A stretch of 23,887 bases of DNA from a virus. The stretch lies in IMG/VR virus record IMGVR_UViG_3300027973_001670, positions 1 through 23,887 of that record, one strand, 5' to 3'. A program made the position numbers and the translations under genes. The notes under the pieces were generated by a model. That model was not told the DNA's origin, ran no database searches, and was given only the letters and a program-made list of their open reading frames with translations. Positions within the stretch are counted from its first letter, which is position 1, and every line of letters begins with the position of its first letter. Below are positions 7,093 to 23,887 of this stretch, one piece after another.

Positions 7093-7465
7093 CAGTTTTT
7101 TGACTGTCACCAGGCACTATTCTATAATTGTCTTCCACGCTGTCTGCAGTGGAAACTTCTGTGATTGAACTGTTGTCCAATACAGCTTCCAATTGATGAG
7201 GTTGTAGAGGAGGATTGTGCCAAGTTTGACCTTCGCTTAATTCCTTCTGATATATTTTAGCATCCTTGGTGTCTATCCAACGCACTAAAAATTTTCCAGA
7301 ATTCACAAACCAAGTTTCCTCTTTGTGTTTGTGAAAATGCAGTGAACACTTGTTGCCTGCTTTGGTAAACACTAAAATTTTTCCACAGTAATTGTCATTG
7401 GTGGCCCATATTAATTCATAACCCCAACCTTTGTCTATTTTGCCTTCTTGTCTATTTACGGTCAT
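7061..7465 (-). CDS. Small cupin-domain protein (sugar-related)
   Basis: This 134-residue single-domain cupin shows an exact first cupin motif, G(x5)HxH(x4)E(x6)G, in GNKCSLHFHKHKEETWFVNSG; the two His and the Glu would bind a metal. The second motif (GQTWHNPPLQPHQLEA) keeps the His but lacks the usual Gly and Asn. The ending around STADSVEDNYRIVPGD is typical of small phage and bacterial cupins annotated as sugar-phosphate isomerase-like. It is much shorter than a complete mannose-6-phosphate isomerase, so I do not assign that reaction. Its ATG overlaps the end of hldD by 14 bases, indicating translational coupling and a role in the same sugar pathway. Its 3' end overlaps the convergent giant virion gene by 32 bases. 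The substrate is unknown. Confidence 0.8.
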   Translation of the reverse strand: MTVNRQEGKIDKGWGYELIWATNDNYCGKILVFTKAGNKCSLHFHKHKEETWFVNSGKFLVRWIDTKDAKIYQKELSEGQTWHNPPLQPHQLEAVLDNSSITEVSTADSVEDNYRIVPGDSQKTVTPELHPIAK

Positions 7466-8279
7466 TGCGAATGTATTCTTCTATGGTTTTGTATTGGATG
7501 TTCACATGAGTATTTAAAAGAGTTGTGTCAGCACAGGTATAAGTTTGATACTGTGCTTTTAATTGTGTTGGCATGGGCACTAATTCTATACGAGCATTGT
7601 ATTTTTTGGCAATTATTTCTGCTACTTCAGCAAAACTTGTGGGTGTTCCTGTGCCCACATTAAAAATACCACTCACATCTTTGGTCAACATTTGTTCATG
7701 CACATCACAAACATCATCCACGCACACAAAATCTCTCAGATATTTTTCACTATTTTCAAAAAGTTTAATTACTCCTGCTTGTTGAGCTTGTTGAATAAAT
7801 TTTGAAATGGGCGATGCTTGGTTGCCTTTGTGTTCTTCATGTGCTCCATACACATTAAAATATCTAAATCCTTGCACTGATATGTTGTATTCACTGTAAG
7901 GAACAGATTTAATCATTCTATCAAACAAAAATTTACTCCAAGCATAAGCACTCAATGGAGACATGGCAGCATCTTCTTTGAAATTTTTTGTTAGACCATA
8001 CACACTGGCTGAGCTGGCGTATTGAAAATTAATACCCATCATATCACACAGGTACAATAATTTACAACTGAAATCAAAATTTTGAATCATTATTTTTTCC
8101 ACATCTGTTTCTGTGGTGCTGCTGATAGCACCCAAGTGTATCACTTGATCGTGTTTGGTTACATCTGGCATCACATCAGGAATATAATCATATCCTTCCA
8201 CTGTGTGTCCTTTGTTCACAAGATGTTTGAATAGATTTTGACCGATAAATCCTTTGTGTCCTGTGATTAATATTCTCAT
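7452..8279 (-). CDS. hldD: ADP-L-glycero-D-manno-heptose 6-epimerase (HldD-like)
   Basis: This 275-residue short-chain (extended SDR) epimerase should convert ADP-D-glycero-D-manno-heptose to the L-glycero form, the last step of making the heptose donor for LPS inner core. The NAD motif GHKGFIG is at residues 7-13, SSASVYG at 89-95, and the catalytic pair Y112xxxK116 sits in SAYAWSK. HldD-specific blocks are clear: FRYFNVYGAHEEHKG (about 138-152), KLFENSEKYLRDF (about 172-184), GIFNVGTG (about 204-211) and LKAQYQTYTCAD (about 230-241). It is about 35 residues shorter than E. coli HldD (310 residues). Much of the loss lies between the second and later strands of the Rossmann fold (residues about 30-45). 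The ATG overlaps the hldE stop by four bases (ATGA). Another sugar-nucleotide epimerase activity is possible but less likely given the adjacent hldE. Confidence 0.88.
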   Translation of the reverse strand: MRILITGHKGFIGQNLFKHLVNKGHTVEGYDYIPDVMPDVTKHDQVIHLGAISSTTETDVEKIMIQNFDFSCKLLYLCDMMGINFQYASSASVYGLTKNFKEDAAMSPLSAYAWSKFLFDRMIKSVPYSEYNISVQGFRYFNVYGAHEEHKGNQASPISKFIQQAQQAGVIKLFENSEKYLRDFVCVDDVCDVHEQMLTKDVSGIFNVGTGTPTSFAEVAEIIAKKYNARIELVPMPTQLKAQYQTYTCADTTLLNTHVNIQYKTIEEYIRNDRK

Positions 8280-9526
8280 GATTGTAATCTATCTATAATT
8301 TTTGTGGTGGAAAATCCTTCCACGGTGGGAAATATAATCACTCGTGCCAACTCATTGCCCACTGTGGTGGACACTGTGTAATCTCCACCTTTGACAATAA
8401 TGTCTGGTTTAATTTCTTCTATGATTCTTTGTGGAGTATCTTCTGTGAATAGCACTACTTCGTCCACCCAAGGCAACATTTCCAATTGACGTTTTCTTGT
8501 GGCATAATCATTCACTGGTCTGCCTTCACCTTTTAATCTACGCACACTGGCATCATCGTTGATGCCTACTATTAACTTTTTACCTTGATTCCTAGCAAAC
8601 TTTAATAATTCCAAATGTCCTGTGTGTAATATATCAAACACTCCATTGGTCCATACTGTGCCTTTGTTCAAATCTTCTTTGGTGACAGGCACAACACCAA
8701 ACTTTTCCACATTTCTTGCTGCAGCATAGCATGCCAATTCACAAGCACGTGGCACAGTCATGCCTTGTTTGATACCATATGCTATCACGGCCAACACAGT
8801 ATCACCTGCTCCGGTGACATCTGCCACTTCTCTCACGGGTTCTTTCACATGTGAGTACGATCCTTCTTTGGAAATGATATGAATACCTTTGGCTCCATCA
8901 GTGATTATAAGCCATGTCCAACTGTGTGTTTGAGCAAATTTCACAGCTGAATCCACATCAAAAGTGCCATTCCATGATTCATATTCTTTCATGTTGGGCT
9001 TAACTAAAAATGCTCCATCATAATAATCAGCAGATTGTTTGGGATCTACCAACACCCATTGAGTTTTTTCTAAAATGTTTTTTACTGTGTGAGATTTAAT
9101 AACTCCTTTGGCATAATCACTGATTAATACCATACTTTTTTCTGTGAGAGAAAATAACAGTTGAGACAAACAACTATCTTTGATGTATTGTTTTTCTCTA
9201 TCCCAACGCAGTATGTGTTGCCCTCTTTGTTCAACCAATCTTATTTTTGTTGTGGTAATAGGAGCATCTTCTGCTATGGATAAAAATACATTGCTGTTTT
9301 TTAATAAGTTTACTAAACTGTAACCGTCTGTGTCTTTGCCCACTGCTCCATACAATTGTACATCATAGTGAATGGCAGCCATATTCACTGCTAAATTAGC
9401 AGCACCACCTGGAGAAACTTTTTGATTTTGTTCTAATAAAATAGGAATGGGTGCTTCAGGTGACATGCGATCAGCAGTGCCCACGATCCAACGATCCAGC
9501 ATGATATCACCAAGTATTTTGATCAT
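8276..9526 (-). CDS. hldE: Bifunctional heptose 7-phosphate kinase / heptose 1-phosphate adenylyltransferase
   Basis: This 416-residue protein has the two-domain order of HldE (RfaE). The N-terminal PfkB-type kinase has the GDIMLDRW start, SPGGAANLA at 38-46 and the catalytic DVTGAGDT with Asp242. It phosphorylates D-glycero-D-manno-heptose 7-phosphate at C1. The C-terminal cytidylyltransferase-like domain has TNGVFDILHTGH (residues 293-304, HxGH nucleotide-binding motif), RRLKGEGRPVN and VKGGDY. It transfers AMP to heptose 1-phosphate after a phosphatase step. E. coli HldE has 477 residues; this one is shorter mainly in the kinase and linker. The start overlaps the Nudix stop by one base (TAATG) and the end overlaps hldD by four. 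GmhA and GmhB counterparts are absent from this window, so substrate supply would have to come from the host or from elsewhere in the phage genome. Confidence 0.93.
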   Translation of the reverse strand: MIKILGDIMLDRWIVGTADRMSPEAPIPILLEQNQKVSPGGAANLAVNMAAIHYDVQLYGAVGKDTDGYSLVNLLKNSNVFLSIAEDAPITTTKIRLVEQRGQHILRWDREKQYIKDSCLSQLLFSLTEKSMVLISDYAKGVIKSHTVKNILEKTQWVLVDPKQSADYYDGAFLVKPNMKEYESWNGTFDVDSAVKFAQTHSWTWLIITDGAKGIHIISKEGSYSHVKEPVREVADVTGAGDTVLAVIAYGIKQGMTVPRACELACYAAARNVEKFGVVPVTKEDLNKGTVWTNGVFDILHTGHLELLKFARNQGKKLIVGINDDASVRRLKGEGRPVNDYATRKRQLEMLPWVDEVVLFTEDTPQRIIEEIKPDIIVKGGDYTVSTTVGNELARVIIFPTVEGFSTTKIIDRLQS

Positions 9527-9960
9527 TATAGAAATTTTAACATCTTAAAAACTGTTTCCAGTTTTATTTGATTATTTTTGTTTTGTAATGTATTTCTCAA
9601 TCCTTGATGTAAAGGTTTGGGCCATTTGCCAAATATTACCCAAGCGTAGCCATCGTGTTCTTCATTTAATTTAGGGATAAACTCATTTTTTACCACACAC
9701 AGATAGGTATGATATAAAAAGTTTTCATCATTGCTCACAAACGTTTCTAAAGGTATAGTTTTGGTAATATTTACAGAACCAATTTCTTCACTGATTTCTC
9801 TTTTGAGCGATTCCCAAGGTGTTTCGCTTGCAATATTCTTGCCGCCCACTAATCCCCACACGTTGGATTGTTTGCTTTGAGTTCTGTGTAAAAACAAAAA
9901 TCTTTTGGTGTCTAGATTATAGAACAAGGCTCCGCAGCCAATTATTTTCTTATTGGTCAT
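9526..9960 (-). CDS. Nudix hydrolase
   Basis: This 144-residue MutT/Nudix-fold protein carries a Nudix box that fits G(x5)E(x7)REUxEExG: it starts at GKNIASE, then seven residues, then REISEEIG. The Glu residues bind the metal that assists cleavage of a nucleoside diphosphate linked to another group. Flanking text such as GCGALFYN, WGLVGGK, EEHDGYAWV and PKPLHQGL resembles small Nudix proteins common in marine T4-like phages. The substrate cannot be read from the sequence; nucleotide sanitation or nucleotide-sugar turnover are both possible. The gene lies between gp15 (13-base gap) and hldE (one-base overlap), so it belongs to the same transcript. Confidence 0.88.
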   Translation of the reverse strand: MTNKKIIGCGALFYNLDTKRFLFLHRTQSKQSNVWGLVGGKNIASETPWESLKREISEEIGSVNITKTIPLETFVSNDENFLYHTYLCVVKNEFIPKLNEEHDGYAWVIFGKWPKPLHQGLRNTLQNKNNQIKLETVFKMLKFL

Positions 9961-9973
9961 ACTGATAATTATG

Positions 9974-11434
9974 CTATAGACTTAGGTTCCAGGTTCCTTT
10001 GCGATATTCACCTTCAAAGCTCAGTAACCATGCTGTGCCATCCCATTTGTACTGCACACCTGTGTTTAGATTGGTGATGTAGGTAAATTCAACTGCTGAA
10101 TCCACAGTGTTAGCATTGGCACTGGCATCAAATAATATGTTCCATTGAGTGCCATTCCATTCTATGATGTCATTGGATTGAGCCACAAAATCACTACTGT
10201 TGGAATTTTTCCATGCATCGGCTCCGTCCACATTACTGTTTGATCCTATGTCATTTAAGATTAATAATCGTAAACCAGAAATTTTTGTTGCTGTGGGATT
10301 GAATGTGAGTGGATCTATGATGTAATCCACAGTGCCTCTGTTGGTTACTCCATTGATAATTGTATTGGTTGGAATAGTATCAGTGTCCCAATTCACTATC
10401 AATTGATTTTCATTCAAACTGTTGAGAGCAAACGTTCCTGAAATTGTGGAATCCATATCAGAACGTTCCAAAAGTATTCTACTGATGCCTGCTTGATAAA
10501 TTCCTGGATATGCATCCAACACTTTTCTCCAATTGGTTACGCCCACAACTCCTTTGTCTACTATTTGAACTATGCTGTTCATTACCACAATATCCCAATC
10601 ACTGATAGTGGTTGCTGTCACAGAATCAGCATCGGTTCTTGTCACTTTGCTGGTATCTTGAGTGCCATCAGCTGTGGTATTGATATCTGATCTAGCAGTG
10701 TCGGTGGGATCATCTGAATATGCTTTGAGTTCAGGCATGCTCATGCCCAAATCAATATTACCTGTTTGTTCGTTAAAAATGCTGGTGATAATTTTTGTAA
10801 TTACTCCTAATTTTTTTACTTTGGTTGGTGCACTGATATAGATTGGAGTGGTAAATTGCAGTGTGGCAATGTCTATTTCACTTTCAGTGCCTGTGGGAAT
10901 TCCTCTGGAACTAAAAGTTATTCCATTAAGATCTAACACAGTTAAACTGGTCCAATCAATGTAATTGTCAGTGGTTTGAATTTCTAAACTGGGATTGAAT
11001 AACATCAATATTTGTTCTAATATTTGTAATTTTTGATCTGTATTGGTTGACCAAATGTCCACACTCACACCCAAGGTGTAAGGAGTAGGCATTAATCTTT
11101 CCACAGTAAAATTGGCTCCTTGAATGTTCAGATACTCTTCGTTATTCTCATCAAAAGCTCTTTCTCTCACATGTATTTTACTTACAAATGTAGCATCAGC
11201 TGTACGGGTACGATCCATTTCCAATGAAGTCACGTATACTGCCATTCTAGGAGCACTGGGAATTTTATTTTCACTGTTGTCTCTAATGATATGTGCCACT
11301 TGTCTAGTAATATCGCCATACATCACTGGTATGGTCTTCAATTGACCTTTGCCATCTTTATAAGAAAAATTACTCATTAATCTCACAATCTGAGTAATAT
11401 ATCTGCGTATTTGTCCGTCGTAAAAAAATTCCAT
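9974..11434 (-). CDS. 15: Tail terminator / sheath stabiliser, gp15-like
   Basis: This is a homologue of T4 gp15, the protein that caps the tail tube and sheath and joins tail to head. The N-terminal half matches the family: FYDGQIRRY near the start, IPVMYGD, an APRM-type region, then PTPYTLGVSVDIWSTNTDQ and LEQILMLFNPSLEI. T4 gp15 has 272 residues and this protein has 486. The extra part is a C-terminal extension of over 200 residues containing two aromatic modules, IIEWNGTQW (423-431) and YKWDGTAW (462-469), similar to modules in gp14 and gp18 here. The gp14 stop lies two bases upstream of its ATG and no Shine-Dalgarno sequence is seen, so it is probably coupled to gp14. It sits on the minus strand, opposite to gp13, gp18 and gp19. 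Confidence 0.87.
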   Translation of the reverse strand: MEFFYDGQIRRYITQIVRLMSNFSYKDGKGQLKTIPVMYGDITRQVAHIIRDNSENKIPSAPRMAVYVTSLEMDRTRTADATFVSKIHVRERAFDENNEEYLNIQGANFTVERLMPTPYTLGVSVDIWSTNTDQKLQILEQILMLFNPSLEIQTTDNYIDWTSLTVLDLNGITFSSRGIPTGTESEIDIATLQFTTPIYISAPTKVKKLGVITKIITSIFNEQTGNIDLGMSMPELKAYSDDPTDTARSDINTTADGTQDTSKVTRTDADSVTATTISDWDIVVMNSIVQIVDKGVVGVTNWRKVLDAYPGIYQAGISRILLERSDMDSTISGTFALNSLNENQLIVNWDTDTIPTNTIINGVTNRGTVDYIIDPLTFNPTATKISGLRLLILNDIGSNSNVDGADAWKNSNSSDFVAQSNDIIEWNGTQWNILFDASANANTVDSAVEFTYITNLNTGVQYKWDGTAWLLSFEGEYRKGTWNLSL

Positions 11435-11436
11435 GT

Positions 11437-12594
11437 TTAATTGTCCGCTTTGGGTTTAAGTGCTTGTGATAAACTTTGTCTTTGTGGGACAGTTTGACCT
11501 GCCACTGTGGTTGTGTTGGTGTTGTTGATAAATCCTGTTTTTTGTGTGTTTCTGGTGTCAGTGTTGGTCAACGTCATACGCACAGCATCTTCCATTTTGA
11601 TCCAACGTGTGCTGTCGTATCTAAATAATCTATTGGGTAAAAAATCTGTTCTTAAAAAATAATCACCTTTGGCAGCACCCAAAGGAAATCCTATGCCGTG
11701 ACCAAACACTTCACCGTTGGGCGCAAATCCATCTCCCAATAGATAACCGTCATAACCATTTCTGTCTGGTGTTTGATTGATTCTATCTGCCATTTCATTG
11801 GCAGTGCTGGCATCCAATGTGTTGATATCTGTGGTGACCAATTCAGGCTTGCCTTGTTCATCCACTTGCAAAGTGAATAAATTTTTAGTATTGTATCCAC
11901 TCTTGTTTGAGTCTGCTTCTGCTTGTGCCACAACAGCATTGTTAATTTGCATTTCTTTTTCATATGTGCTCAACACATCTCGTAGAGTGTTTTCACTGCC
12001 TTCTTCAGCAGGTAAATCCAGTATTTCTTTGAATTCTTGGCTGTCTACTATTTGTTTAAGTTTTAATCTATATAAATGAGGATACCAAGTGGGTGAAAAT
12101 CCTTCTGCTGCTCTGTTTATATCCTGTATCACATAAAATCTTTTCAATGCCACTTTGTAATCATTCAGTGCGTATTGGTCTTTTAAATGTGGTAATTCTA
12201 TCACATCTCCTGACATTAATTTTCTACCAATGGTTTTGACTGAACTGTTGATATGCACAGTTAAAAATATTGTATCATTTTGCAGAAATAATCCAAATTG
12301 ACTCATGTCAAAGTCAATGTCACTCACGTTGTAAATGCCTCTGATCTGATAGATGTTGGGATCGTATTTTCTATCTCTATTTTCTAAAAATAATAGGTCT
12401 TGAATATTGGTTTCTTTCACAGCATTGTATCTGGGCTGTGTGGCTGTGGCATCTTCTTCATCAGGATTCACAGGTCCAAGGTATTTGTGTACAAACACAT
12501 CAGTGCCGCCCACTGTGAACATTTCTGCGATTGTTTGATCTAAAAATGTGTAATCTTCGCCCTTTTCTGGCTTGTATAAACTGATTCTTGGCAT
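11437..12594 (-). CDS. 14: Neck protein, gp14-like
   Basis: This 385-residue homologue of T4 gp14 (256 residues) is a head-tail connector component that acts with gp13 and gp15. Family-typical segments are FDMSQFGLFLQNDTI, KLMSGDVIELPHL, LKRFYVIQD, and AAEGFSPTWYPHLYR. The C-terminal part holds GDYFLRTDFLPNRLFRYD followed by a Trp (about 310-336), an aromatic module also seen in gp15 and gp18. The ATG has no Shine-Dalgarno sequence. A late octamer AATAAATA ends five bases before it, so its mRNA is predicted to be leaderless or nearly so. It heads the minus-strand unit gp14-gp15-Nudix-hldE-hldD-cupin. Confidence 0.87.
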   Translation of the reverse strand: MPRISLYKPEKGEDYTFLDQTIAEMFTVGGTDVFVHKYLGPVNPDEEDATATQPRYNAVKETNIQDLLFLENRDRKYDPNIYQIRGIYNVSDIDFDMSQFGLFLQNDTIFLTVHINSSVKTIGRKLMSGDVIELPHLKDQYALNDYKVALKRFYVIQDINRAAEGFSPTWYPHLYRLKLKQIVDSQEFKEILDLPAEEGSENTLRDVLSTYEKEMQINNAVVAQAEADSNKSGYNTKNLFTLQVDEQGKPELVTTDINTLDASTANEMADRINQTPDRNGYDGYLLGDGFAPNGEVFGHGIGFPLGAAKGDYFLRTDFLPNRLFRYDSTRWIKMEDAVRMTLTNTDTRNTQKTGFINNTNTTTVAGQTVPQRQSLSQALKPKADN

Positions 12595-12599
12595 GTGTA

Positions 12600-12607
12600 T
12601 ATTTATT
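12600..12607 (-). promoter_or_regulatory. Late promoter octamer for gp14 unit (AATAAATA)
   Basis: On the minus strand AATAAATA matches TATAAATA at seven of eight bases and ends five bases before the gp14 ATG. It is the only good promoter candidate I see for the whole minus-strand block. It is back to back with a plus-strand motif 15 bases away. Confidence 0.7.
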
Positions 12608-12622
12608 CATGCTGTGTCTGGT

Positions 12623-12630
12623 GCTAAATA
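12623..12630 (+). promoter_or_regulatory. Late promoter octamer for gp13 (GCTAAATA)
   Basis: GCTAAATA matches the TAAATA core. CTAAATA-type late motifs are known in T4-like cyanophages. It lies 18 bases upstream of the gp13 ATG at 12649, with AGGA at 12637-12640 in between as a modest ribosome binding site. It is divergent from the gp14 motif at 12600-12607. Confidence 0.6.
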
Positions 12631-12648
12631 TGTTATAGGAACCTATTG

Positions 12649-13407
12649 ATGAGCGAACTACAAACACAAAGACAAGAAATATACAGTTTTGCTAAAGACA
12701 TGCTGGGTGGGGGCATGGTTGAGGTTGAACTGGATCCCAATCACTATGAAACAGCACTAACCAGAGCTTTGGGTAGATATCGTCAAAGATCCGACAATTC
12801 AGTGGAGGAAAGTTATTTGTTTTTGACCACAGTGTTGGATCAAAACAGTTATACCTTGCCCAACGAAGTGATGGAAATTAGACAGATTTTTAGAAGAAGT
12901 GTTGGTTCAAGAAGTGGTGGCGGAGATGGTGGCACAGTGTTTGAACCATTCAATTTGGCCTACACCAACACCTATCTATTGGCCAGTTCCAACATGGGTG
13001 GTTTGGCCACTTACAACATGTTTTCTCAGTATCAGGAAATGGTGGGTAGAATGTTTGGTTCTTTCATAGAATTCAAATGGAACTCAGTGACCAAAGTTTT
13101 AACGTTATTACAAAGACCCCGAGCAGAAGAAACATTGATGTTGTTTGCTTACAATTACAGACCCGAAAGCCAACTGTTGACCGATTACAAATCTAGAGAA
13201 TGGATCAAAAGTTACACATTGGCCAATTGCAAATACATGTTGGGTGAAGCCAGATCCAAATTCAACACTGTGGCAGGACCACAGGGTGGAACCACACTGA
13301 ATGGTGACACTTTAAAAGCCGAAGCTCAAGCTGAAATGGATAGATTGGATGCTGAATTGGCCACACAAATGGCTGGTGGCGTGGGCTATCATTTCACAAT
13401 CGGTTAA
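12649..13407 (+). CDS. 13: Neck protein, gp13-like
   Basis: This 252-residue homologue of T4 gp13 (309 residues) is a connector protein that with gp14 closes the filled head and forms the tail docking site. Family features include the N-terminal helix followed by VEVELDPNHYETALTRAL, an internal IFRRS segment, a long aromatic region ending in FIEFKWNSVTKVL, then SREWIKSYTLANCKYMLGEARSKF, GGTTLNGDTLKAEAQAEMDRL and a short hydrophobic C-terminus. I chose ATG 12649 over an in-frame TTG at 12646 because AGGA at 12637-12640 is then eight bases away. It is the first plus-strand gene of the second half and diverges from gp14, whereas T4 genes 13-15 are collinear. Confidence 0.87.
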   Translation: MSELQTQRQEIYSFAKDMLGGGMVEVELDPNHYETALTRALGRYRQRSDNSVEESYLFLTTVLDQNSYTLPNEVMEIRQIFRRSVGSRSGGGDGGTVFEPFNLAYTNTYLLASSNMGGLATYNMFSQYQEMVGRMFGSFIEFKWNSVTKVLTLLQRPRAEETLMLFAYNYRPESQLLTDYKSREWIKSYTLANCKYMLGEARSKFNTVAGPQGGTTLNGDTLKAEAQAEMDRLDAELATQMAGGVGYHFTIG

Positions 13408-14048: not shown

Positions 14049-14460
14049 TACCTTGTGATTGCAGCACTCGCTGACAGTTGGCACACACTGTTTTAAGATT
14101 GTTAAATCTACAGTTATTAAGATTGCCATCCACATGAAACACATTAAACTGCTGAGCATGTTTGCTTTTGTATGAACACTTATCACACTCGTTTTTTTTC
14201 ACATAGCCCGACTGCTGCCATTTGGGCATGCCCATGGATCTGCCTTTGTAACGCACACACTGCTCGCACTGAGATCTATAGAATACCTTGTTTGCTTTGT
14301 GATAATTCACAGCACAGGGGCGTTGTTTGCAGGCTTTGCACAAAGGTCGCATACAGTATTTAGCTGCCCTTTTTTGGCCCTTTTTGTTGGGATTAATGAG
14401 GTGTATTTTTGAGCTATCTGAATAAATATATTCAAATAAGTCATAGATAGGAGAAAACAA
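14011..14460 (-). CDS. HNH/zinc-ribbon endonuclease-like protein
   Basis: This open frame of 149 codons encodes paired Cys knuckles (LCKACKQRPC at about 40-49, CEQC, then CDKC) and a treble-clef nuclease-like core FHVDGNLNNCRFNNLKTVCANC. The His-x-Asp-Gly-Asn and NNL-x-T-x-C-x-NC arrangement is that of small HNH proteins common in marine T4-like phages. They are often free-standing homing endonucleases. The frame has no ATG until Met37 (14352). The frame's first start is a TTG at 14460, overlapping the gp18 leader, and the residues between look protein-like, so the start is uncertain. It is wedged antisense between the dNMP kinase (38-base overlap) and gp18, which fits a late arrival. Confidence 0.72.
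   Translation of the reverse strand: MFSPIYDLFEYIYSDSSKIHLINPNKKGQKRAAKYCMRPLCKACKQRPCAVNYHKANKVFYRSQCEQCVRYKGRSMGMPKWQQSGYVKKNECDKCSYKSKHAQQFNVFHVDGNLNNCRFNNLKTVCANCQRVLQSQGIKWVQGDLVPDF
14421..14428 (+). promoter_or_regulatory. Late promoter octamer for gp18 (AATAAATA)
   Basis: AATAAATA matches TATAAATA at seven of eight bases. It lies 33 bases upstream of the gp18 ATG, giving a leader long enough for the AGGAG at 14449-14453. It also lies in a small inverted repeat, TGAATA-AATA-TATTCA (14419-14434). Confidence 0.75.
14449..14453 (+). promoter_or_regulatory. Strong Shine-Dalgarno site of gp18 (AGGAG)
   Basis: AGGAG lies eight bases before the ATG at 14462 and fixes that start. Full AGGAG sites are rare in this window, seen otherwise only before gp19. 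Confidence 0.85.
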
Positions 14461-17680: not shown

Positions 17681-17688
17681 TATAAATA
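17681..17688 (+). promoter_or_regulatory. Canonical T4-type late promoter for gp19 (TATAAATA)
   Basis: TATAAATA is an exact match to the T4 late octamer, in the 32-base gap between gp18 and gp19. It is followed by CTAGCA, which recurs after other late octamers here. It lets gp19 be transcribed independently of gp18. Confidence 0.88.
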
Positions 17689-17706: not shown

Positions 17707-18333
17707 ATGAGTATATCTACACTATCTAAATTGACAGTACCTTTGGCCAGCAACGCAAGTGCAGGCAGTCAGGGTCTGTTGATGCCAAAATTATCGTATC
17801 GTTTCAGAGTCACATTGGAAAATTTTGGTGTATCGACTCCAACCACAGAATTAACTAAACAAGTTATTGATGTTACAAGACCCAACGTAAGTTTTGAAAA
17901 CATCACATTAGATGTGTACAACTCTAAAGTTTATCTTGCTGGTAAACACACTTGGGAACCTATCACATTAAATTTAAGAGAAGATGTGAACAATAATGTA
18001 CAAAAATTAGTAGGCGAACAGCTACAGAAACAATTTGACTTTTATGAACAATCTGCTGCTGCTTCAGGATCTGATTACAAATTTGTAACTAGAATTGAAG
18101 TGTTAGATGGTGGTAACGGAGCAAATGCTGCCAACATTTTAGAAACTTTCGAATTGTATGGTTGCTATGTAGATTCAGCAAACTATAACACATTGGCTTA
18201 CAACACCAACGATCCTATCAGCGTGACATTATCTATCAGATATGACAATGCTATTCAAACGCCTCAGGGTACAGGAATTGGCACCGCAATAGGTCGTACA
18301 ATTAATACTCTTGCCACAGGCGGCGGACAATAA
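17707..18333 (+). CDS. 19: Tail tube protein, gp19-like
   Basis: This 208-residue protein matches the T4 gp19 tube subunit (163 residues), which stacks in hexameric rings inside the sheath. Supporting text includes LLMPKLSYRFRVTLENFG, QVIDVTRPNVSFENITLDVYNSKVYLAGKHTWEPITLNLRED, KFVTRIEVLD, and LETFELYGCYVDSANYNTLAYNTNDPISVTLSIRYDNA. The order of strands and the 'P-V-F-E...W-E-P-I-T-L' core are those of the tube fold. It follows gp18 directly, has its own consensus late promoter and strong ribosome site, and is followed by a terminator. This is the arrangement of a very abundant protein expressed as a single-gene unit. Confidence 0.93.
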   Translation: MSISTLSKLTVPLASNASAGSQGLLMPKLSYRFRVTLENFGVSTPTTELTKQVIDVTRPNVSFENITLDVYNSKVYLAGKHTWEPITLNLREDVNNNVQKLVGEQLQKQFDFYEQSAAASGSDYKFVTRIEVLDGGNGANAANILETFELYGCYVDSANYNTLAYNTNDPISVTLSIRYDNAIQTPQGTGIGTAIGRTINTLATGGGQ

Positions 18334-18355: not shown

Positions 18356-18384
18356 AAAAAGGGGTCTAAATGGCCCCTTTTTTT
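18356..18384 (+). terminator. Rho-independent terminator after gp19
   Basis: A stem GGGGTC / GGCCCC (18361-18366 and 18372-18377, one G-T pair) with a five-base loop TAAAT is followed by seven T residues. An A-run before the stem extends it by pairing with the T-run, so it could also work in the other direction. It starts 22 bases after the gp19 stop and is the only convincing intrinsic terminator I see in the window. Confidence 0.92.
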
Positions 18385-18409: not shown

Positions 18410-18417
18410 CATAAATA
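18410..18417 (+). promoter_or_regulatory. Late promoter octamer, five bases before a start (CATAAATA)
   Basis: CATAAATA matches the T4 octamer at seven of eight bases, just downstream of the gp19 terminator. It is followed by TTAGC and the ATG at 18423. It restarts transcription for the next unit, and the start codon would coincide with the 5' end of the RNA. Confidence 0.75.
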
Positions 18418-18422
18418 TTAGC

Positions 18423-19541
18423 ATGCCAAACATATTAAAACCTTTTTTAGATAATCTTTTCAAAGGAGCTTTAAATCCCAAAGGCAACCTTGCTGACTAT
18501 CAACATGGACAAAGATTATTTGTGGATGACAGTTTTAGATTGGCTCCAAAACAAAAGTTTCTTTACCACGTATCATTCAATATTAACTCTCGCGCCACAG
18601 CAATTATTCCTAATTTCAATTCCACTGTTGGCGAAGAATTAAACATGTTGGTAAAATCTGTGGATTTACCCAAATACACCATAGAAACTGTGACCAAAAA
18701 TCAATACAACAAAAAAAGAAAATTACAAACTAGAATAAATTATGATCCTATTCAAGTAGTATTTCACGATGACAACTATGGCATAACCACTGCTATGTGG
18801 CAGATGTATTATCAATATTATTTTAAAGATGGAAACTATGGCAAAAAAGATCAAACCAAAACCATATCCAGCACTGTGCCTGATCAGTACAACAGAGGAA
18901 ATACCATATCAGGAGACACGGCGAACAAATATAGATATGGAATGGATTCTGATTCTTTTGAACCTTTTTTTACCAGCATACAAATTTATCAAATGGCTAG
19001 AAAAAGATACACCTGTTACACATTGGTGAATCCATTGATAACCAATTGGCAAGGAGACACGTTATCATATGGCAGCAATGATCCAGTGGCCAACAGTATG
19101 ACCATAGAGTTTGAAACAGTATTCATGAGCAGAGGACCAGTAACTGCTGGATCAGCACCCAAAGGATTTGGTGTTAGACACTATGATAAAACTCCAAGTC
19201 CGTTGTCATTGCCTGGTGGAGGAACCACTAGTGTGTTTGGAGTGGGTGGAGTATTGAGTGGACTTTTTGGATTGGGTGGAGACAAAAGTGCTTTCAGTGA
19301 TATTGAATCGGGCGGTGCGGGATCTGGTAGTTTTTTAAAAACAGTTATAAGCAGTGCTAACAGACTTAAAAATTTAAAAAAATTAAACAAAGAAGGTTTG
19401 AGAGAAGAAGGATTCAATATAGTCAAAGAAGGAATTGGCAGAGTGGGTGGAACCAATGTGAGTGGTGTGGCCAACACACTGTTTCCTAAAAATACCCCTG
19501 TGGCTAATAACGTAACCAAAGCTGAGTTAAAAAGAAGATAA
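18423..19541 (+). CDS. Second tail-tube-family protein, possible tube initiator
   Basis: This is a 372-residue protein. The N-terminal part (residues about 45-125) has FLYHVSFNIN, ELNMLVKSVDLPKYTIETV, NQYNKKRKLQTRINYDPIQVVFHDDNYG and TAMWQMYYQYYF, and a later strand pair reads SMTIEFETVFM. This is the strand order of the gp19 tube-fold family, so I read it as a gp19 paralogue. T4 baseplate proteins such as gp54 (320 residues), which starts the tube, share that fold, so a tube-initiator or tube-cap role is a reasonable guess. The C-terminal third is Gly-rich, then Lys-rich (KNLKKLNKEGLREEGF), and has no assignment. It begins a new unit after the terminator and lies three bases before the next gene. 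Confidence 0.6.
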   Translation: MPNILKPFLDNLFKGALNPKGNLADYQHGQRLFVDDSFRLAPKQKFLYHVSFNINSRATAIIPNFNSTVGEELNMLVKSVDLPKYTIETVTKNQYNKKRKLQTRINYDPIQVVFHDDNYGITTAMWQMYYQYYFKDGNYGKKDQTKTISSTVPDQYNRGNTISGDTANKYRYGMDSDSFEPFFTSIQIYQMARKRYTCYTLVNPLITNWQGDTLSYGSNDPVANSMTIEFETVFMSRGPVTAGSAPKGFGVRHYDKTPSPLSLPGGGTTSVFGVGGVLSGLFGLGGDKSAFSDIESGGAGSGSFLKTVISSANRLKNLKKLNKEGLREEGFNIVKEGIGRVGGTNVSGVANTLFPKNTPVANNVTKAELKRR

Positions 19542-19544
19542 TTT

Positions 19545-20021
19545 ATGTCCAGTGAAAATATTATTAATTCTGATTTTCCTGAATTAGATGTTTCAATTCC
19601 TAATATTAATCCTAGAGAATTGAGTGTTACTAACAAAGAAAAAATCAATACCTCAAACAATGTTCCCAGCACTGTTTCAAACACTGATAGTGCTCAGCCA
19701 GTTAAAACATTTTTTGACAAATATTTTGTTGAGCCTATCAGTATTCCAGCTGGTGAAATAGATGCTGTGATAGGATTTTTTGAAAAAAGAAATTTTGAAA
19801 AAACTGCAGCAGTCAGTGTGTCCACAATTTTATTACAGCAGGCCAAGTTAGATAATGTGAATATTTTTCAATTGTTGGATACTTTAAAAGGATTGAGCGA
19901 ATTACAATTGAGTAGTGTTGTTGCAGAAATTTTAAATGTGAACAGATCAAAAATTTCCACACTAGGATTCAAAGTGACCAACAATCAAAACCAATTCGAA
20001 AAACGCAACATAGTGGTATAA
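19545..20021 (+). CDS. Conserved-style phage protein of unknown function
   Basis: I cannot name this 158-residue protein. Residues about 1-50 are Ser/Asn/Thr-rich and look disordered. From about 60, IPAGEIDAVIGFFEKRNFEKTAAVS is followed by LLQQAKLDNVNIFQLLDTLKGLSELQLSSVVAEILNVNRSKISTLGF, a predicted helical bundle. I recall similar text in proteins of marine T4-like phages next to tail and head-completion genes. There is no signal peptide, membrane segment or catalytic motif. It is separated by three bases from the upstream tube-family gene and four bases from gp4, so it belongs to their operon. A virion assembly role is inferred from context only. Confidence 0.8.
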   Translation: MSSENIINSDFPELDVSIPNINPRELSVTNKEKINTSNNVPSTVSNTDSAQPVKTFFDKYFVEPISIPAGEIDAVIGFFEKRNFEKTAAVSVSTILLQQAKLDNVNIFQLLDTLKGLSELQLSSVVAEILNVNRSKISTLGFKVTNNQNQFEKRNIVV

Positions 20022-20025
20022 TCAG

Positions 20026-20469
20026 ATGCCTCGACGTTTTGCTCAAGGTAAATTCACTTTAAAAAATCCTGAAAAATATCTAGGAACCAAAGACCCATTG
20101 TACAGATCCAGTTGGGAATTTGCTTTTATGAAATTTTGTGATGAAAGTCCTTCCATTGCCAAATGGGCCAGTGAAGCAGTGAGAATACCTTACAGAAATC
20201 CTCTCACCGGAAGATACACCATATATGTGCCAGACTTTTTTATCAACTATGTGGACAAAGGTGGACAACCACATGCAGAGATAGTTGAAATCAAACCACA
20301 GAATCAATCGTTGAGAGAAAAAGTGGGAAAAAATTTAAACAATCAAGCCAGTTACATTTTGAATCAAGCCAAATGGGAAGCTGCCACTGCATGGTGCCGT
20401 CAAAAAGGTTTAAAGTTCAGGGTGATCAACGAAACCGATATTTTTCACCAAGGCAGCAAGCGCCGATAA
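20026..20469 (+). CDS. 4: Head completion nuclease-fold protein, gp4-like
   Basis: This 147-residue homologue of T4 gp4 (also called gp50/65, 150 residues) is needed to finish DNA-filled heads before tail joining. Matching text includes the basic N-terminus GKFTLKNPEKYLG, YRSSWEFAFMKFCDESPSIAKWASEAVRIPY, YVPDFFINY, EIVEIKP, and the end AKWEAATAWCRQKGLKFRVINETD. Asp70 with Glu88-x-Lys90, plus Glu31 in the SSWE helix, make the E...D...ExK pattern of the restriction-endonuclease-like fold, so it may trim DNA at the portal. In T4 gene 4 is in another cluster (near 2, 64 and 53); here it sits directly before the terminase genes. Its stop codon lies inside the late octamer of gp16. Confidence 0.88.
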   Translation: MPRRFAQGKFTLKNPEKYLGTKDPLYRSSWEFAFMKFCDESPSIAKWASEAVRIPYRNPLTGRYTIYVPDFFINYVDKGGQPHAEIVEIKPQNQSLREKVGKNLNNQASYILNQAKWEAATAWCRQKGLKFRVINETDIFHQGSKRR

Positions 20470-20472
20470 ATA
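20465..20472 (+). promoter_or_regulatory. Late promoter octamer for gp16 (GATAAATA)
   Basis: GATAAATA includes the TAA stop of gp4 (20467-20469) and ends eight bases before the gp16 ATG. It matches seven of eight bases of TATAAATA. No Shine-Dalgarno sequence follows. Confidence 0.65.
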
Positions 20473-20480
20473 ATACTATC

Positions 20481-20972
20481 ATGACCAAAAAATTAGAAGA
20501 TCTATTGAATCTACCAGAATCCAAAGACATAGTGATGGAAGAAAAAAATAAAAAAGAACAAGAAAAATCTTTGGATGCTCAAAAAGAAACCCTGCGAGAC
20601 ATTGCTGAGTTTGACAAGATCACTGCAGCACTACCCATGGTGAAAGATTTGGGCACAATGGCTGATGAAGAACTGGATGAAATAGCCAAAAAAGCCATGA
20701 CTGCCTATGACGATTTGATGGACTTGGGCATGAACGTGGAGAGCAGATACAGTGGTAGAGTGTTTGAAGTGGCTGGTAACATGTTGAAAACCACACTGGA
20801 AGCCAAAGCTGCCAAAATAGACAAAAAGCTCAAAATGATAGACCTACAGATACGCAAGCAAAAGATGGACAGAGATGGCGGAATTGACGATTCTAACATG
20901 GTACAGGGCGAAGGCTACGTGGTTACTGATCGTAACAGTTTGATTGAAAAACTTAAAAATATGGATAAATAA
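20481..20972 (+). CDS. 16: Terminase small subunit, gp16-like
   Basis: This 163-residue protein is close in length to T4 gp16 (164). The gp16 ring recognises the concatemer and stimulates the gp17 ATPase. The protein is highly charged and helical: an acidic/basic N-terminus with an E/K-rich stretch (residues about 20-40), then LPMVKDLGTMADEELDEIAKKAMTAYDDLMDLGMNVESR, FEVAGNMLKTTLEAKAAKIDKKLKMIDLQIRKQKM as the central coiled-coil region, and a C-terminal tail with VVTDRNSLIEKL. The reading frame is open further upstream inside gp4, but ATG 20481 fits the family length and follows a late octamer. The last codons, Asp-Lys-stop, form the next octamer. Confidence 0.85.
   Translation: MTKKLEDLLNLPESKDIVMEEKNKKEQEKSLDAQKETLRDIAEFDKITAALPMVKDLGTMADEELDEIAKKAMTAYDDLMDLGMNVESRYSGRVFEVAGNMLKTTLEAKAAKIDKKLKMIDLQIRKQKMDRDGGIDDSNMVQGEGYVVTDRNSLIEKLKNMDK
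20964..20971 (+). promoter_or_regulatory. Late promoter octamer inside the gp16 3' end (GATAAATA)
   Basis: GATAAATA is written by the last two sense codons (Asp-Lys) and the first two bases of the TAA stop of gp16. It ends seven bases before the ATG at 20979. Confidence 0.6.
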
Positions 20973-20978
20973 ACACAT

Positions 20979-21557
20979 ATGGAAACAGAATTTAAAAAAA
21001 TACTGGCAGAAAGCAAAAAAACCTACAGATTTAAATTGGGTTTAGCTGGTGAATTGCCTGAAAATATCAATGATGCTTTGAAACAAGCACTTAGCAAATA
21101 TGAAATAGTGAGTTTGTCCAAAGGCAAAAAAACTCCAATCACAGAAAGACCACTGGATTTCCCCAAACTACAGAACATGGAAGTCACATACTTTGATGCT
21201 GAATTGGCCTATCCTACCACTCCAGAAATTTTAGAACAATACGTGAGTTTGATCACGAAGGTCCCAATGAGTCATGTGATAGTGAGAACAGACGTGCAGC
21301 ATACGGATTATCCCACAGACAAAAAAGAAGAACCCTATGTAGCAAAACTTGAAACACCATTGGAGCAAGCAGATAAGAAAGCACAAGATCAAGTGGGACA
21401 AAAGAGAGTCACAGAAATTTTAAAACAGATGGAAAAAGACAGAAAAGCAATCACTTTGGCCAAAGAAGATTCAAAAAATAAAAAAGAAAAACAATTGCAG
21501 GACAGAGAAGAGAAAGCCTCTGCATCACCTTTAACCAAAGTCAAACACGATAAATAG
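20979..21557 (+). CDS. Unrecognised protein between terminase subunits (192 residues)
   Basis: I cannot assign a function. Residues 1-125 look folded: KTYRFKLGLAGELPENINDALKQALSKYEIVSLSKGKKTPI, then PLDFPKLQNMEVTYFDAELAYPTTPEILEQYVS and MSHVIVRTDV. This alternates strands and helices in a ferredoxin-like or small alpha/beta pattern. Residues about 130-192 are a charged K/E/Q-rich helix, probably coiled coil. Similar text occurs, as I recall, in marine T4-like phages near the terminase genes. Placement between gp16 and gp17 suggests a packaging, prohead core or scaffold role, but that is inference. It ends in Asp-Lys-stop, whose bases form the late octamer for the next gene. Confidence 0.8.
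   Translation: METEFKKILAESKKTYRFKLGLAGELPENINDALKQALSKYEIVSLSKGKKTPITERPLDFPKLQNMEVTYFDAELAYPTTPEILEQYVSLITKVPMSHVIVRTDVQHTDYPTDKKEEPYVAKLETPLEQADKKAQDQVGQKRVTEILKQMEKDRKAITLAKEDSKNKKEKQLQDREEKASASPLTKVKHDK
21549..21556 (+). promoter_or_regulatory. Late promoter octamer inside a 3' end (GATAAATA)
   Basis: GATAAATA is made by the final Asp-Lys codons plus the first two bases of the TAG stop of the upstream gene. It ends five bases before the ATG at 21562. Confidence 0.6.
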
Positions 21558-21561
21558 AGTT

Positions 21562-22182
21562 ATGGATATCAGAGATATATTAAGCAGGATTGACAAAGTT
21601 CAAAACCCCAAAGAACTTGCCAGCGAGATTGTTAAGTCTAATCTCACAGAAGCAGCATCTATCAGTGTGAACATGTATGGAAATACACCTGACGAAGTTC
21701 AAGCCATGTATCAAATTTTTAAAAATGCAGGATTGACTCCTCCAACACCAGCAGTGGTTGGACCCGCTCCTGTAGAAGCTGAAGAAAAATCAGTGGGTGA
21801 GGATGACAGATATCAAGCCAGCACCACTCCAGATCCTAAATATGCCACAATACCAGACACAGTGGATCCCACAGGTGATGATCTTCATAAGAAGAAAAAA
21901 ATGTATGCCAGAAGTCAACCAGGCGACAATCCAATGGCTGTGAAAGAAGATGACATTTCATTAGCAGAAAAAATCAAATCACAATTAACTCAAGACTATG
22001 CTGCTTTTAAAGAAGGTGCAGTCAAAGGTTGGTTGATGGACATGGAATCAGACGCAGCTGAAATGAACAAAGACGAATTCATCAAAAAACACGGACAAAG
22101 ACATGCAGATATTTGGGATAGAATAAATTCTGAAAATCCTGATTCAAATTCTGATTCTTTTGAAGATATTGAACTAGAATAA
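21562..22182 (+). CDS. Unrecognised protein before gp17 (206 residues)
   Basis: No function can be assigned. The N-terminal helix (MDIRDILSRIDKVQNPKELA) is followed by EAASISVNMYGNTPDEVQAMYQIFKNAGL, a short strand-helix unit whose style I recall from marine T4-like phage proteins. The middle is Pro/Ala/Glu-rich and probably disordered. The region VDPTGDDLHKKKKMYARSQPGDNPM is basic. A helical acidic C-terminal region follows, with EGAVKGWLMDMESDAAEM and EFIKKHGQRHADIWDRI. The high charge and lack of a fold signature would fit a scaffold, core or internal head protein, but this is inference. A 48-base gap separates it from gp17. Confidence 0.8.
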   Translation: MDIRDILSRIDKVQNPKELASEIVKSNLTEAASISVNMYGNTPDEVQAMYQIFKNAGLTPPTPAVVGPAPVEAEEKSVGEDDRYQASTTPDPKYATIPDTVDPTGDDLHKKKKMYARSQPGDNPMAVKEDDISLAEKIKSQLTQDYAAFKEGAVKGWLMDMESDAAEMNKDEFIKKHGQRHADIWDRINSENPDSNSDSFEDIELE

Positions 22183-22216
22183 TCACTTCACAAACAAATT
22201 ACCTCACATTTAATCA

Positions 22217-22224
22217 GATAAGTA
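22217..22224 (+). promoter_or_regulatory. Weak late promoter-like octamer for gp17 (GATAAGTA)
   Basis: GATAAGTA matches six of eight bases of TATAAATA, in the 48-base gap before gp17. It ends six bases before the ATG at 22231 and is followed by CTAC, like other late sites here. Confidence 0.45.
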
Positions 22225-22230
22225 CTACAT

Positions 22231-23832
22231 ATGAGTACCAAAAGTCTGGATGGAGTTCTTACCAAAAAAGCACACACCAGGGAAAAATACACTGAATCAC
22301 AATTGAATGAGTTGGCTGCTTGTGCAGACGCCACTCTGGGATATCTTTATTTTGCCAAGAATTTTTTTAATATTCAACATCCTGTGAGAGGCAAACTGCT
22401 GTTTGAACCTTATGCGTATCAAACCAAACTGCTGGAAACCTATCACAAATATAGATTTAACATAAACATGTTGCCACGTCAAAGTGGCAAGACCACTTGT
22501 GCATCATCATACCTGTTGTGGTATGCCATGTTTCATCCTGATCAAACCATATTGATTGCTGCTCACAAATACACAGGCGCTCAAGAGATCATGCAACGTA
22601 TTCGTTATGGATATGAATTGTGTCCAGATCATATCAGAGCGGGTGTGGTAAACTACAACAAAGGATCTATGGAATTTGAGAATGGATCTAGAATAGTTTC
22701 AGCCACCACCACTGCCAACACTGGTAGAGGTATGTCCATATCATTGTTATACTGTGATGAGTTTGCATTTGTTAATCCAACCATTGCTAGAGAATTCTGG
22801 ACTTCAATATCTCCAACGTTAGCAACAGGAGGTCGAGCCATCATAACTTCCACTCCCAACTCAGATGAAGATGAGTTTGCTGTGATATGGAAAGAATCAC
22901 AAAATAATTTTGACGAACACGGCAATGAAACTGAAATGGGAATAAATGGATTCTTTGGTTACACAGCATCTTGGAATGAACATCCAGAACGAGATGAAAA
23001 ATGGAAAGAAAGTGAATTGGCACGTATAGGTGAAGAAAGATTTAGAAGAGAATATGGTTGTGAATTTTTAGTTTACGACGAAACATTGGTAAACAGTATT
23101 GTACTTGCTTCATTGGAAGGCAAGCAACCCATATTAACCATGGGCCAAACTAGATGGTATGAAAAAATAAATCCTGCTGCTACCTATGTGATATCATTGG
23201 ATCCTGCCATGGGCACTGGTGGAGATTATGCTGCCATTCAAGTGTTTGAAGTGCCATCATTTAAACAAGTGGCCGAGTGGAGACACAATCAAACACCCAT
23301 ACCACAACAGGTAAGAATATTAAAAGATATTGTAACATTTATCAAAGAAGAATGCAAAAGTCCATCGGCCAGCAACATCTATTGGAGTGTGGAAAACAAT
23401 ACCATAGGTGAAGCAGCACTGTTGGTAATCAGTGACTTTGGTGAAGAAAACATTCCAGGATTGTTTGTGAGTGAACCCATAAGAAAAGGACACATAAGAA
23501 AATTTAGAAAAGGATTTAATACCACACACAGAACTAAAATCAGTGCTTGTAGCAGATTGAAAGGCATGATTGAAAACAACAAAATGACCATCAGCAGCAA
23601 GGCTTTGATCAGTGAATTAAAAACATACGTGGCAGTGGGATCAGGATTCAAAGCCAAATCTGGAGAAACAGATGATCTTATCAGTGCTGTGCTGTTGATT
23701 TTAAGAATAGTCAGCATACTGAAAGATTGGGATCCTAGAATTTATAATTCATTCTTACAAGTAGAAAATGATGAGGATGGCGGAGAACGCATACTGCCCA
23801 TGCCAGTGTTTATCAGCACCACTAACAACTAA
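22231..23832 (+). CDS. 17: Terminase large subunit, gp17-like
   Basis: This is the DNA packaging motor: an ATPase plus the nuclease that cuts concatemers at the portal. The ATPase domain has Walker A RQSGKTT (residues 83-89), Walker B LLYCDE (172-177, Asp176-Glu177) and the coupling motif TSTPN (206-210). The RNase H-like nuclease has ISLDPAMGTGGDYAA with Asp324, YWSVENN with Glu388, and GETDDLISAV with Asp481/482, corresponding to T4 Asp401, Glu458 and Asp542. Length is 533 against 610 in T4, with the loss at the N-terminus. All catalytic residues look intact. It has no Shine-Dalgarno sequence. Two unrecognised genes separate it from gp16, and its TAA stop lies inside the next gene's late octamer. 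Confidence 0.96.
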   Translation: MSTKSLDGVLTKKAHTREKYTESQLNELAACADATLGYLYFAKNFFNIQHPVRGKLLFEPYAYQTKLLETYHKYRFNINMLPRQSGKTTCASSYLLWYAMFHPDQTILIAAHKYTGAQEIMQRIRYGYELCPDHIRAGVVNYNKGSMEFENGSRIVSATTTANTGRGMSISLLYCDEFAFVNPTIAREFWTSISPTLATGGRAIITSTPNSDEDEFAVIWKESQNNFDEHGNETEMGINGFFGYTASWNEHPERDEKWKESELARIGEERFRREYGCEFLVYDETLVNSIVLASLEGKQPILTMGQTRWYEKINPAATYVISLDPAMGTGGDYAAIQVFEVPSFKQVAEWRHNQTPIPQQVRILKDIVTFIKEECKSPSASNIYWSVENNTIGEAALLVISDFGEENIPGLFVSEPIRKGHIRKFRKGFNTTHRTKISACSRLKGMIENNKMTISSKALISELKTYVAVGSGFKAKSGETDDLISAVLLILRIVSILKDWDPRIYNSFLQVENDEDGGERILPMPVFISTTNN

Positions 23833-23835
23833 ATA
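23828..23835 (+). promoter_or_regulatory. Late promoter octamer over the gp17 stop (ACTAAATA)
   Basis: ACTAAATA includes the TAA stop of gp17 (23830-23832) and is followed by CTAGC and the ATG at 23841. TAAATACTAGCA also follows gp18 at the gp19 promoter. Confidence 0.65.
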
Positions 23836-23840
23836 CTAGC

Positions 23841-23887
23841 ATGAACCTAAATGACACGTCTAAAGAGCTATTTGCCAAGATAAGGGG
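23841..23887 (+). CDS. 5' end of the next late gene (partial)
   Basis: An ATG five bases after a late octamer opens a frame that runs off the window after 15 complete codons (MNLNDTSKELFAKIR). Too little is visible to identify the product. The start is supported by the same octamer-CTAGC-ATG arrangement found before other genes here. Confidence 0.6.
   Translation, partial: MNLNDTSKELFAKIR

Follow-up and report, generated by a model that had tools for sequence, protein, structure and literature searches.

In a stretch of viral DNA of 23,887 bases (the window; the entire IMG/VR virus record IMGVR_UViG_3300027973_001670, itself a fragment of a larger phage), the late promoter octamer of T4-type phages appears to be used in two different architectures. 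Before some late genes it is followed by a leader with a Shine-Dalgarno (SD) site, whereas before many others it stands so close to the ATG that the late mRNA is predicted to be leaderless or near-leaderless. We give this reading, in which the RNA ends are deduced from the DNA, a probability of roughly 0.8. The leadered class includes the sheath and tube genes, and the predicted leaderless class those for terminase, the gp14 virion protein, a tube paralogue and some metabolic proteins. In T4, the textbook case of late transcription, late messages carry leaders and SD sites. Both the promoter and leaderless mRNA are already known; what is new is their combination as a regular architecture that alternates with a short SD leader.

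Late promoter octamers in the window

The window encodes T4-type virion and packaging genes (tail sheath, tail tube, tube paralogue, head closure, head-tail adaptor and terminase). It has no DNA-level match in the annotated phage collection, and its terminase large subunit (TerL) shares 55% identity with its counterpart in Pseudomonas phage PA5oct. The octamers and the genes that follow them are listed here, the gap being the number of nucleotides between octamer and ATG.

18410-18417, plus strand: late promoter octamer CATAAATA, gap 5 to the ATG at 18423; predicted +1 on the A of the ATG
18423-19541, plus: tail-tube paralogue (phrog_4542/13438), predicted leaderless
20465-20472, plus: octamer GATAAATA, gap 8 to the ATG at 20481; overlaps the stop codon of gene 20026-20469
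20481-20972, plus: possible terminase small subunit-like gene (phrog_445, E = 4e-4; phrog_16202), predicted near-leaderless
20964-20971, plus: octamer GATAAATA, gap 7 to the ATG at 20979; overlaps the upstream stop codon
20979-21557, plus: virion structural protein gene (phrog_14802), predicted near-leaderless
21549-21556, plus: octamer GATAAATA, gap 5 to the ATG at 21562; overlaps the upstream stop codon
21562-22182, plus: open reading frame without assigned function, with orthologues in relatives, predicted leaderless
22217-22224, plus: variant octamer GATAAGTA, one mismatch to NATAAATA, gap 6 to the TerL ATG at 22231
22231-23832, plus: TerL gene (gp17-like; phrog_36964, E = 7e-126), predicted leaderless or near-leaderless
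23828-23835, plus: variant octamer ACTAAATA, one mismatch, gap 5 to the ATG at 23841
23841-23887, plus: first bases of a gene that runs past the end of the window; its orthologues in relatives encode a virion structural protein (in G001, phrog_13484)
12600-12607, minus: octamer AATAAATA, gap 5 to the gp14 ATG at 12594
11437-12594, minus: virion structural protein gene named gp14 in the first-pass annotation (phrog_11591), predicted leaderless
17681-17688, plus: contrast class, octamer TATAAATA, gap 18 and an AGGAG SD before the tail tube gene at 17707
14421-14428, plus: contrast class, octamer AATAAATA, gap 33 and an AGGAG SD before the tail sheath gene at 14462
18356-18382, plus: intrinsic terminator between the tube gene (end 18333) and the 18410 promoter; 11 pairs and a T run, fold z = -3.3

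The first-pass annotation had listed six plus-strand octamers and the minus-strand one of gp14. Direct reading of the sequence finds all seven at those positions and spacings, none of them with an SD, as it had also stated. Its list was correct for these seven sites but left out the sheath and tube genes, where the octamer is followed by an ordinary leader. Since those two genes keep an SD leader, leaderless use is selective and represents one of two classes. The exact core ATAAATA occurs seven times in the window, always at most 33 nucleotides (nt) upstream of a gene start, and five of these occurrences lie 5-8 nt from it, compared with a mean of 0.25 and a maximum of 2 for permuted 7-mers of the same composition, our control for chance in the distance counts. 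Five of the seven listed sites have the exact core; the other two (22217 and 23828) are conserved variants with one mismatch.

Distances and conservation among relatives

Using TerL we gathered 80 related viral loci, among which were eight larger contigs (55-134 kb) whose complete sequences we examined. Genes were called by a simple longest-open-reading-frame method, and genome counts distinguish a near class (5-8 nt) from a far, or leadered, class (11-30 nt). Across 81 viral loci (1.0 Mb), the core lies 5 nt from the ATG in 80 cases, 6 nt in 62, 7 nt in eight and 8 nt in 28 (178 in total), and never at 1-4 or 9-10 nt; a second peak, mostly with an SD site, is found at about 14-22 nt, and permuted 7-mers give about 2-5 per position. 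The distribution starts abruptly at 5 nt. It shows the sharp excess over controls at 5-8 nt that the first-pass annotation had named as support for leaderless late messages, and its reading of these genes is thus supported by the spacing counts, although the RNA 5' ends are predicted ones and the use is selective. Since related sequences do not count as independent cases, we also grouped the genes into 191 families, 17 of which have the core at 5-8 nt (permutation mean 3.5, maximum 10). Among the high-count permutations, some (such as TAAATAA and AATAAAT) are simply the motif displaced by one base. At 0-4 nt, where +1 would fall inside the gene, the core is depleted (two families, compared with 6.2 for permutations).

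The two classes also differ in their start regions. At 5-8 nt the start codons are 215 ATG, two TTG and no GTG, compared with 170 ATG and 28 GTG or TTG at 11-22 nt (28/198); leaderless initiation strongly prefers AUG in both E. coli and Caulobacter (PMC4117421, PMC9031893). SD-like sites precede none of five near genes in the window and four of 38 in the relatives' contigs G001-G008 (4/43 together), as opposed to 52 of 67 leadered genes in those contigs, or 53 of 68 when the window is included. Within the window and these contigs, 43 of 111 octamer-bearing genes have the octamer at 5-8 nt.

Conservation was scored over distinct upstream sequences of orthologues with the relaxed motif NNTAARTA. 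The 5-8 nt spacing is kept in 29 of 29 for TerL, 32 of 32 for the gene at 23841, 28 of 29 for the tube paralogue (at 5-6 nt) and 7 of 7 for gp14, and less so for the genes at 20979 (12/23), 21562 (10/20) and 20481 (6/26); eight other offsets taken together gave two matches over all genes. The octamer before TerL, which the first-pass annotation had called weaker, is thus backed by the orthologues, as is the second one-mismatch octamer, that of the gene at 23841. Many relatives keep a weaker form, ATAAGTA, before TerL. The tube gene, on the other hand, has an octamer at 15-22 nt together with an SD in all 42 orthologues. A natural pair is seen at the tube paralogue, where the relative L070 has ATAAATATTAGC-ATAGGAGATTAAGT-ATG and the window ATAAATATTAGC-ATG.

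One may consider that the near octamers are merely AT-rich stop-codon contexts that happen to lie beside ATGs, with the true starts located downstream, and several octamers do contain an upstream TAA or TAG stop. Chance arising from AT richness was ruled out by the permuted 7-mers and the family-level counts (17 families where 3.5 are expected). The first residues of the orthologues align from Met 1, and therefore the called starts are right; in addition, the start codons deposited for HTVC008M and Mosig, cultured SAR11 phages discussed below, agree with the predicted ones where checked. We consider this explanation scarcely credible. Alternatively, the AT-rich segment could be an element of translation, either unstructured or bound by S1, and no promoter at all. 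AT-rich upstream segments can indeed aid initiation without an SD (PMC5397173), but permuted 7-mers of identical composition yield no comparable peak (some of the higher counts are shifted overlaps with the motif, e.g. TAAATAA), and the same octamer stands 14-22 nt upstream in genes that do have an SD. A pure translation element is accordingly very improbable.

Predicted RNA starts and longer messages

In T4 the first base of the late octamer is at -13 (PMC2988020), so that the octamer spans -13 to -6, and a spacing of 5 therefore puts +1 on the A of the AUG. Leadered promoters offer an independent check, as no start codon dictates the base six positions past their octamer; this base is a purine in 87% of cases in this clade, 81% in T4 and 80% in SAR11 phages. 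In the spacing-6 class of the clade the fifth base is a purine (86% A, 13% G), which gives an alternative start 2 nt before the AUG.

The octamers would then be T4-type late promoters read by the host RNA polymerase with a late sigma factor of the gp55 family, a homologue of which is encoded in the relative G001 (phrog_12791, E = 9.5e-81). Transcription would begin on the A of the AUG where the spacing is 5 and 1-3 nt ahead of it where the spacing is 6-8, and ribosomes would start at the 5'-terminal AUG with no SD recognition. The same promoter placed about 10-20 nt farther upstream, with an SD inserted, would serve proteins such as sheath and tube, and the two classes may tune protein amounts or expression. 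Some bacteria often initiate on leaderless messages; one of them is the alphaproteobacterium Caulobacter, in which translation of such messages is about as efficient as that of leadered ones (PMC4117421).

Several observations weigh against this two-architecture reading. No gp55 gene was found in the 24-kb window fragment, only in the relative. The 5' coding region is equally structured in the leaderless and leadered late genes, although folding in the leaderless class is weaker than in genes without an octamer. The spacing of the gene at 20481 recurs in only the six of 26 orthologue upstreams given above, and the genes at 20481, 20979 and 21562, whose octamers abut or contain the end of the preceding gene, could also ride on upstream messages.

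This last point leads to a broader alternative: although the octamers act as true late promoters, the bulk of the protein would come from longer messages that begin upstream, through coupling or reinitiation, and the leaderless RNA would be minor or untranslated. The three genes just named do follow the preceding gene closely, with octamers that overlap its stop codon. For the tube paralogue, however, the situation is different, as it sits behind the terminator at 18356-18382. This terminator separates the tube gene from the 18410 promoter, and therefore the gene at 18423 should depend on its own promoter. The position of the terminator is conserved, while its stem sequences differ among orthologues. 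Such terminators are present in 22 of 111 near-class upstreams, nearly all of them before the tube paralogue, and in one of 116 leadered ones. Moreover, the near genes lack SDs, and the spacing is kept in TerL, in the gene at 23841 and in gp14, the last of which is transcribed divergently from its neighbour. We therefore regard longer messages as an unlikely main source of these proteins, and favour the use of the promoter in two architectures.

The gene behind the terminator (372 aa) encodes a second, longer tail-tube-like protein right after the tube gene, and such a protein is found clade-wide at about 370-460 aa. In Mosig, a gene at 24964 (minus strand) is preceded by the same unit of terminator, promoter and ATG. 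The genes for gp14 and the head-tail adaptor (gp13-like) are divergent at 12594-12649 of the window, and in relatives the short stretch between the two carries an octamer for each gene, with a predicted leaderless arrangement for gp14 and a leadered one for its neighbour.

Other phages and leaderless systems

Near and far octamer counts, respectively, are 0 and 27 in T4, 0 and 12 in Syn9, 0 and 14 in S-PM2, 3 and 16 in P-SSM4, 2 and 22 in PA5oct, 2 and 24 in Atu_ph07 (the last two both at background), 11 and 5 in HTVC008M, and 7 and 19 in Mosig. With none or background levels in T4, Syn9, S-PM2, Atu_ph07 and PA5oct, a T4-wide or jumbo-phage-wide trait was rejected. T4 itself, with its gp55/gp33/gp45 system, resembles the window clade in the octamer, in the gp55-family sigma (present in the relative) and in the purine preference at the same +1, but differs in having an SD in 21 of 23 of its genes with far octamers; the contrast with T4 drawn in the first-pass annotation is thus borne out. 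Cyanophage late promoters have the form NATAAATA (S-PM2, Syn9; PMC2984593). These phages likewise share the octamer and a gp55 homologue with the clade, but Syn9 and S-PM2 have no near sites and P-SSM4 only three against its 16 leadered ones.

A parallel is found in the Pelagibacter phages HTVC008M (11 genes) and Mosig (seven), in which late octamers stand 5-8 nt from annotated starts, including that of gp25. The near class of HTVC008M includes a neck protein, and the sheath, tube and capsid genes of both phages carry SDs, as does the contrast class here. They nevertheless belong to a separate lineage (Kyanoviridae) and prefer GT after the octamer, in contrast to CT or TT in the window clade. 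In Melnitz, a relative of these two that infects an OM43 host, three octamers are near and promoters are mostly leadered; the gp25 octamer lies 16 nt upstream with an SD in Melnitz, 5 nt in HTVC008M and 8 nt in Mosig. One might speculate that in at least two lineages of marine T4-like phages promoter-AUG spacing is a built-in, host-tuned switch between SD-led and leaderless late mRNAs, given that these related Kyanoviridae use leaderless promoters substantially on SAR11 and rarely on OM43, and that gp25 differs in class between the two. This is a tentative and somewhat doubtful suggestion, three phages being too few to claim host dependence. As hints of the host we sought tRNA genes, and none were found in a scan of 20 stretches of the relatives' contigs; a scan of GTDB genomes with the metabolic genes gave a single weak match to a metagenome-assembled genome, which was uninformative as to the host of the clade.

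Outside the T4-like phages, bacterial leaderless genes (Caulobacter, mycobacteria, Deinococcus) similarly have a core promoter element directly before the AUG and no SD, but they use host sigma factors and their 5' ends have been mapped, whereas here a phage late promoter and predicted ends are concerned. Among phages, lambda cI has been named as a leaderless message (PMC9031893). That case, however, is a single gene, compared with a late regulon here. The cI gene is under host sigma-70.

We also considered the ribosomal protein bS21, located close to the ribosomal anti-SD, as a phage-encoded aid to leaderless initiation. Genes for bS21 occur in Melnitz (L221:35389-35661), HTVC008M (91228-91431) and Mosig (9932-10141), with homologues in PA5oct and Atu_ph07, and none were seen in the contigs of the window clade, which are incomplete. 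This candidate was rejected, since its presence does not track with the trait: PA5oct, Atu_ph07 and Melnitz carry bS21 and the clade contigs show none.

The searchable literature, outside which lie most subscription journals (cyanophage transcript maps elsewhere could bear on the point), yielded no account of T4-like phages, HTVC008M and Mosig included, whose late genes are systematically leaderless, nor any RNA-seq of HTVC008M or Mosig. In an ocean phage clade and in cultured SAR11 phages, part of the virion and packaging genes appear to be expressed from the T4-type promoter as leaderless late messages, with the SD class left for sheath and tube. If so, the infected host initiates leaderless mRNAs efficiently, and these phages offer a clean comparative system for what decides between the two modes of initiation. 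The arrangement can be tested by mapping 5' ends in HTVC008M or Mosig, and the octamer spacing is a usable start signal for gene callers in these genomes.

Finally, a metabolic island lies amid the virion genes at 7061-9960 (minus strand), with cysteine dioxygenase-like, nucleotide-sugar epimerase, heptose kinase/adenylyltransferase-like and NUDIX genes. An octamer at a spacing of 5 also precedes an adenylyltransferase/cysteine dioxygenase-like gene in the relative G007, which thereby has a late promoter element to itself.

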